Part shown: piece after piece, positions 11,010 through 11,032 of the stretch
Numbering within the stretch: position 1 is the stretch's first letter
How the letters are laid out: the number at the start of each line of letters is the position of its first letter
NCBI RefSeq assembly: GCF_021729015.1
Contig: NZ_JAJQQZ010000003.1
Coordinates: forward strand, 372,001 to 436,000
Direction: 5' to 3'
DNA length: 64,000 nt
Source of the DNA: Halobacterium rubrum
GTDB taxonomy: Archaea > Halobacteriota > Halobacteria > Halobacteriales > Halobacteriaceae
Translations under genes and position numbers: made by a program
Notes under the pieces: generated by a model
What the model was told of the DNA's origin: nothing
Databases searched by the model: none
What the model saw: the letters and a program-made list of their open reading frames with translations, nothing else

Positions 11010-11032
11010 CGCACGCGTGCGTGCGTGCGTGC
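11010..11032. repeat. Alternating purine-pyrimidine tract with four GTGC copies
   Basis: From 11010 to 11032 every base alternates pyrimidine/purine; the core is four tandem GTGC units at 11017-11032. Runs of (CG/CA/TG) of this length readily form left-handed Z-DNA under negative supercoiling. The tract abuts the gyrB TATA-like box on its upstream side, so it is suitably placed to sense superhelical tension. Confidence 0.7.

Follow-up and report, generated by a model that had tools for sequence, protein, structure and literature searches.

The gyrB promoter of Halobacterium rubrum carries a 23-bp tract of perfect purine-pyrimidine (RY) alternation which, from comparison of related sequences, is best explained as a local version of a promoter element that is specific to gyrB and spans the class Halobacteria. 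It is almost beyond doubt that the tract is a true cis-element of the gyrB promoter in haloarchaea. How it acts can be put forward more tentatively: a Z-DNA sensor that would lower gyrBA transcription at high superhelicity, through a B-Z junction at the TFB recognition element (BRE), comes, in our judgement, just short of an even chance.

The window analysed, the whole stretch of 64 kb, contains gyrB (637 aa, 9054-10967, minus strand; TIGR01059 at 986.5 bits, over the cut-off), with gyrA (827 aa, 6569-9052, minus strand) directly downstream. A divergent gene of 225 aa on the plus strand (11074-11751) has only a match to the UptA family far below the cut-off. The tract sits between the starts of gyrB and this gene, and its conserved part tracks gyrB. 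The original prediction described unbroken alternation from 11010 to 11032 with four GTGC units, and direct reading of the window confirms this: the positions read CGCACGCGTGCGTGCGTGCGTGC, with the four units at 11017-11032. On the gyrB (minus) strand the tract is GCACGCACGCACGCACGCGTGCG, from -65 to -43 relative to the gyrB ATG, and the order of elements on that strand is tract, AGCC, TTTTTTA, CTA, ATG. The TATA-like box predicted beside the tract is present, its limits narrowing from 10997-11007 to TTTTTTA at 10999-11005 (minus strand). Also on the minus strand are CGAGC (11007-11011), the likely BRE, whose first CG is the last CG of the tract, and CTA (10984-10986), probably the WW (-10) element, which is kept throughout the class at a distance of about 19 nt downstream of the TATA start. 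Within the tract are a conserved core octamer, CGYRYRCG, here CGCGTGCG (11010-11017, minus strand), and a perfect 12-bp palindrome read directly from the sequence, CGCACGCGTGCG (11010-11021).

No RY run in the window is longer; the next are 16 and 13 bp, and runs of at least 12 bp are scarce (8 in 64 kb). For a genome-wide ranking we searched the assembly of the same genome with 16-bp alternating words starting with a pyrimidine. Four overlapping words fell at the tract and at most two at every other site, so other runs reach about 20 bp at most and the tract is the longest in the 3,065,736-base assembly. Reversing the pattern gives the same pattern in the other phase, which makes it uninformative as a control. 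By crude arithmetic, a window should hold 64,000 x 2^-23 or about 0.008 runs of 23 bp, and a 3-Mb genome about 0.4. Genome-wide, the length of the tract alone is therefore only mildly surprising, and the case rests on comparison.

gyrB is present in all 13 genomes of the genus, our own included, and in each of them an RY run of 16-23 bp lies beside a T-rich box, ending at -43 from the ATG in 12 genomes and at -40 in one (L007). The sequence of the run varies, with CGCGCGCACGCGTGCG in at least seven genomes and GCACACGCGCACACGCGTGCG, CGCACGCACGCACGCGTGCG and others elsewhere. Among the 13, four GTGC units are found only in our own genome and three units in one other (L003). The GTGC repeat is evidently a local elaboration, not the conserved feature. 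We also considered the 10-bp word CACGCGTGCG as the mark of a genus regulon. Our own genome had 4 forward and 5 reverse matches and each of the other 12 between 6 and 18; as these numbers were below those of the reversed control in all 13, the word was rejected.

The wider comparison used gyrB upstream regions from the 13 genus genomes, 33 haloarchaeal loci among 80 related loci, a search of 242 genomes that provided 22 loci (L108-L129) and 80 regions picked to spread over genera, and 30 further genomes chosen from outside those listed by that search; the sample is a subset of the 242 genomes. Removing one locus that was too short (L038) and four identical in their last 75 nt reduced 178 loci to 173 distinct upstreams, many of them closely related (an alignment of 143 sequences has an effective number of 86). 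A scoring script placed the TATA-like box and the run was looked for in the 32 nt above it. The proposal was open to failure if related species lacked the tract, and it survived the comparison: the tract lies at the TATA box and BRE in 13 of 13 genus genomes, and a run of at least 10 bp occurs above the box in 167 of the 173 haloarchaeal upstreams (140/143 in an earlier set). The run reaches at least 12 bp in 132, at least 14 in 81 and at least 16 in 46; when these 32-mers are resampled to first order, 33.8% reach 10 bp. In the 143 sequences, occupancy by runs of at least 9 bp is about 0.00-0.03 from -200 to -26/-30 relative to the TATA box, begins to rise at -25 and is 0.92 at -15 to -6. An uninterrupted RY run is found at gyrB both in our window and across the class. 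In 47 gyrB upstreams from outside the Halobacteria there was no such tract, the longest runs within 120 nt being 4-9 bp, with one of 12.

The six upstreams without a 10-bp run, with the longest run in each, are L032 (6), L042 (5), L177 (9), L318 (6), L324 (8) and L329 (8). Three of these, L042, L318 (G030) and L032, are without the tract. L042 has GTGCGAGG and a TTTA remnant and has lost the tract, a natural experiment in which the tract is gone and the BRE kept.

This distribution bears on whether the tract arose by chance or as a side effect of mutation, as a simple repeat rich in GC that GTGC slippage left beside gyrB. The restriction of four GTGC units to one genome among 13 and the mild rarity of a 23-bp run in 3 Mb would suit such an origin, which is nevertheless highly improbable given conservation across the class at a fixed position, beside upstream DNA with almost none. 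For the element as a whole it is ruled out by the class-wide occupancy and the conservation in 167 of 173 upstreams; slippage may hold for the extra repeat units in our own genome.

The class alignment of 143 sequences reads CGCGCGCGCGCGTRCG-N-G-R-S-N-TTTAW, with CTA about 19 nt farther on, and columns farther up carry almost no information. The octamer CGYRYRCG occurs at -78..-30 in 168 of the 173 upstreams, in 11 spellings led by CGCGTGCG (77), CGCGTACG (36) and CGTACACG (20), and in 20 of 691 control windows of 48 nt farther up; the exact form CGCGTRCG is present in 119 of the 173. In 155 of the 168 the RY run reaches at least 2 bp beyond the left end of the octamer. Three upstreams from diverged lineages (L144, L319, L322) alternate over 17-18 bp but lack CGCGTRCG at the BRE; each still holds CGYRYRCG. 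The conserved feature is CGYRYRCG with a CG-rich left arm, not (GTGC)4. The CG on either side of the YRYR centre hardly varies, and column 67 prefers T (0.83) over C, though C would favour Z-DNA more.

The haloarchaeal BRE has been proposed as CGAAA, with a WW element below the TATA box (PMC4983044). By analogy, the conserved CG-N-G-R resembles this BRE and CTA the WW element, which makes both assignments likely; with CG-N-G-R assigned to the BRE, the tract shares its last CG with it. As some species have what look like long inverted repeats, an extended palindrome or cruciform was also considered as the conserved feature. It was rejected because, once summed, left-right complementarity exceeded that of independent columns by little; the highest value, 0.54 for a whole centre, lay above the element.

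We asked how the element changes by counting substitutions by parsimony on GyrB trees of 66 and then 96 tips; the Fisher values are approximate, as parsimony changes were taken as independent counts. On the 96-tip tree, positions -51..-43, a nine-column core delimited after the per-column counts had been seen, underwent 54.3 transitions and 13.7 transversions, a transition fraction of 0.80 against backgrounds of 0.34 upstream (p ~2e-13) and 0.37 below the TATA box (p ~3e-10). At -48..-45 there were 41 transitions to 1 transversion, at -44 4.3 to 6.7, and at -58..-52 26 to 52. All 16 columns together gave 80.3 to 65.7 (0.55; p 2e-6 against upstream and 5e-4 against the region below TATA). On the 66-tip tree the figures were 33.5 transitions to 10.6 transversions for columns 62-70 and 50.5 to 43.5 for columns 55-70, with an upstream fraction of 0.31. 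Disjoint pairs of sequences in three identity ranges gave fractions of 0.44-0.47 over the 16 columns against 0.30-0.33 upstream (p 0.02, 0.02 and 0.0003); from the spacer they did not differ significantly (p 0.14, 0.45 and 0.06).

CpG transition bias as the cause of the R/Y pattern is ruled out by the fourfold sites of gyrB, where the transition fraction on the 66-tip tree is 0.28 overall, 0.27 in CpG context and 0.30 in the slowest quarter. A strict R/Y constraint over the whole 16 bp is not supported either, as the left part shows none (26:52). The core is to all appearances held as a YR pattern; the left arm is kept GC-rich and alternates for the most part, with breaks.

A protein that reads the centre of an operator indirectly would likewise leave nothing but transitions there, and this bears on the strongest rival of the Z-DNA sensor: a putative dedicated, nearly single-target factor, activator or repressor, bound to the palindromic CGYRYRCG above the BRE and reading the YRYR centre through DNA flexibility. 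We regard such a factor as a serious possibility, if on balance a doubtful one. The octamer in 168 of 173 upstreams, the exact CGCGTRCG in 119, the T favoured at column 67 and the nearly fixed CG on both sides are what a factor of this kind would leave behind, and an activator could well sit directly above the BRE. The T preference and the palindromic octamer together make a protein-binding site possible.

A factor might be expected to show itself through other targets, and here gyrB stands nearly alone. The strict motif CGCGTRCGNGN{1,3}TTTWWW has matches in 37 of 87 genomes and is absent from 50; in our own genome it matches at gyrB only. Among 30 strict-motif loci, 22 are at gyrB and 8 elsewhere (L216, L217, L220, L221, L229, L232, L234, L235), and loci and coordinates together place the strict motif at gyrB in 30 of the 37 matching genomes. 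A sequence profile built from 57 elements was searched in 59 genomes under strict filters, which lose weak matches. gyrB was the top match in 55 of the 59 (all 30 loci tested contain gyrB, and 25 more are placed by coordinates), a figure that is partly by construction because some of these genomes supplied profile sequences; what is informative is the lack of strong matches elsewhere. Another site scored best in G013, G014, G030 and G046, in the last by a hair. Among the matches listed, the best outside gyrB had an E value of 0.006, and most such matches extend over just the GC-rich part.

A regulon of the full motif was rejected, since among the matches listed gyrB alone stands out and the others are isolated, such as L216 and L217. 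These two loci, from two species of one genus (G066 and G048), carry the gyrB-like promoter motif CGCGTGCGGGACTTTTTA at a place other than gyrB.

The lack of other conserved targets in these searches, with gyrB the top profile match in 55 of 59 genomes and the site of the strict motif in 30 of 37, argues against a dedicated factor. So do the failure to find the marked left-right covariation of an extended dimer site, the extension of the run by at least 2 bp past the octamer's left end in 155 of 168 upstreams, and the long alternation that L144, L319 and L322 keep without CGCGTRCG at the BRE, though with CGYRYRCG.

As a partial control we examined topA, whose start could be placed in 13 of 29 loci (L273, L274, L283, L285, L286, L291-L298) and was unusable in the other 16. 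None of the 13 has the tract beside its TATA box; five have a run of 9-15 bp farther up. This result counts against reading the element as an extended BRE that strengthens the core promoter, in which TFB, perhaps in one TFB/TBP pair, would contact a longer GC-rich stretch and set basal gyrB strength with no sensing. Runs of at least 12 bp are also rare in the window, and 16 bp exceeds the proposed length of the BRE. The resemblance of the conserved CG-N-G-R beside the TATA box to CGAAA (PMC4983044) speaks for an extended BRE, as does the upstream L042, which retains GTGCGAGG and TTTA with the tract lost, and we consider this reading unlikely.

The Z-DNA sensor depends on whether the tract would flip at attainable superhelicity, which we modelled with published B-Z energies (Table 1 of PMC3024258) for single runs in a simplified 5-kb domain; the energies are low-salt values, and competing melting and cruciforms are left out. 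In this model the tract is the best Z-forming site of the 64-kb window, with a B-to-Z midpoint near sigma -0.042. The predicted probability of the Z-form is 0.16 at sigma -0.040, rises to 0.90 at -0.045 and is 0.998 at -0.050; up to sigma -0.06 it stays at or below 0.01 at every other site within 5 kb. The second-best Z-prone site of the window is a 16-bp alternating run at 36740-36755, GCGTGCGCGTACGCAC. Across the 143 elements the predicted midpoint has a median of -0.0478 (middle half -0.0492 to -0.0465), compared with -0.0727 for 714 control 36-mers drawn from these upstream regions. In a set of 90 less related elements, the midpoints have a standard deviation of 0.0039, against a minimum of 0.0043 in 100 column shuffles, and 13 of the 90 fall below -0.05, against at least 28 in the shuffles; shared ancestry can contribute to this narrow spread.

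If the tract is a Z-DNA sensor, high negative superhelicity would flip the run to Z-DNA, placing a B-Z junction at the BRE and taking up local torsion. Docking of TFB and TBP, or promoter opening, would then fall and less gyrase would be made. On relaxation the run would return to the B-form and gyrBA would again be transcribed. We infer the Z-form in the cell, the junction at the BRE, and the sign and cause of the response. A stronger version, which we hold with some reserve as rather below an even chance, treats the element as a DNA-structural thermostat. In it, a Z-prone tract joined to the gyrB BRE would have been tuned by selection to flip near the set-point superhelicity and so shut the promoter of its own gyrase, and would have been kept across the class while its bases drift within the RY pattern.

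The Z-DNA sensor is favoured by the conservation of the element, the R/Y-keeping core, its near-uniqueness to gyrB, the modelled Z propensity, the long alternation kept in L144, L319 and L322 without CGCGTRCG at the BRE, and the novobiocin response of strain R1 described below. Against it stand the uneven R/Y constraint (at -58..-52 and -44) and the modest excess in disjoint pairs, and the T preference at column 67 and CG flanks nearly fixed as in a protein site, of which the right CG is explained by the BRE. The CG-rich composition, by itself enough for a 10-bp run in one resample out of three, and the six of 173 upstreams that have no such run also count against it. The original prediction of a superhelicity sensor at gyrB is partly supported, by a tract that is class-wide and near gyrB-unique, with an R/Y-keeping core and a moderate modelled Z threshold, and is altered in that the conserved feature is not (GTGC)4.

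Short alternating sequences have been linked to supercoiling in this group before. Yang et al. (1996, as cited in PMC3184054 and PMC8643681) are said to have described the RY box of the Halobacterium bop promoter, where a non-B structure is also reported. Like the gyrB tract, it is a short alternating stretch within a promoter of a haloarchaeon, and it is linked to expression that responds to supercoiling. It measures about 11 bp and lies near the TATA/start side, whereas the gyrB run is mostly 10-23 bp, lies above the BRE and is conserved across the class. Kim and DasSarma reportedly described natural Z-DNA-forming sequences of Halobacterium halobium in 1996 (as cited in PMC1971269), Z-forming DNA in the same genus as the gyrB tract, and a companion title is said to state that Z-DNA is stabilised by supercoiling but not salinity. 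In bacteria the sensing by gyrase genes is ascribed to the sigma-70 promoter itself, in contrast to the conserved Z-prone block beside an archaeal BRE and TATA box in Halobacteria. The two cases are alike in concerning a gyrase gene, in the rise expected on relaxation and in having cis-acting promoter DNA as the sensor. The bacterial promoters are homeostatic and stimulated by relaxation (Menzel and Gellert 1983, as cited in PMC3184054; for E. coli gyrA, PMC6170449).

In a microarray study of Halobacterium salinarum R1, novobiocin stimulated gyrase and the type I topoisomerases, which its authors liken to negative feedback in E. coli (PMC3184054). The stimulation of gyrase fits feedback. Its support is weakened because, according to the same source, R1 carries a GyrB mutation and bop also rose with novobiocin there, unlike in NRC-1, where bop was inhibited (PMC3184054). 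In NRC-1, gyrB was down 1.4-fold in the cold (PMC1971269). This fall neither supports nor excludes the Z-sensor model.

To our knowledge, how archaea balance supercoiling after acquiring a bacterial gyrase is an open question, and we know of few clear biological roles for Z-DNA in prokaryotes. A class-wide, gyrB-specific Z-prone block in a tractable group (Haloferax, Halobacterium) makes both questions directly testable, and if the thermostat is true it would be a Z-DNA element whose function can be read in comparative genomics. The gyrB element is undescribed in the titles and abstract openings listed by our searches of open-licence PMC articles; Yang et al. (1996) or Holmes and Dyall-Smith (1991) may mention it.

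The searches also turned up features of the topoisomerase genes themselves. gyrB looks intein-bearing in several Halobacteria: in seven loci (L323-L329, from G099, G027, G070, G038, G135, G024 and G055) the gyrB match breaks off at query residue 434 and resumes from 424-428 in a second piece, within open frames of 898-1436 aa. In L014 and L319-L322 the match runs to residue 500-510, and the frame has at least 1087 aa. In G015 (L287), about 1.6 kb separate the two parts of the topA match within an open frame of 1380 aa, which suggests an intein in topoisomerase I.
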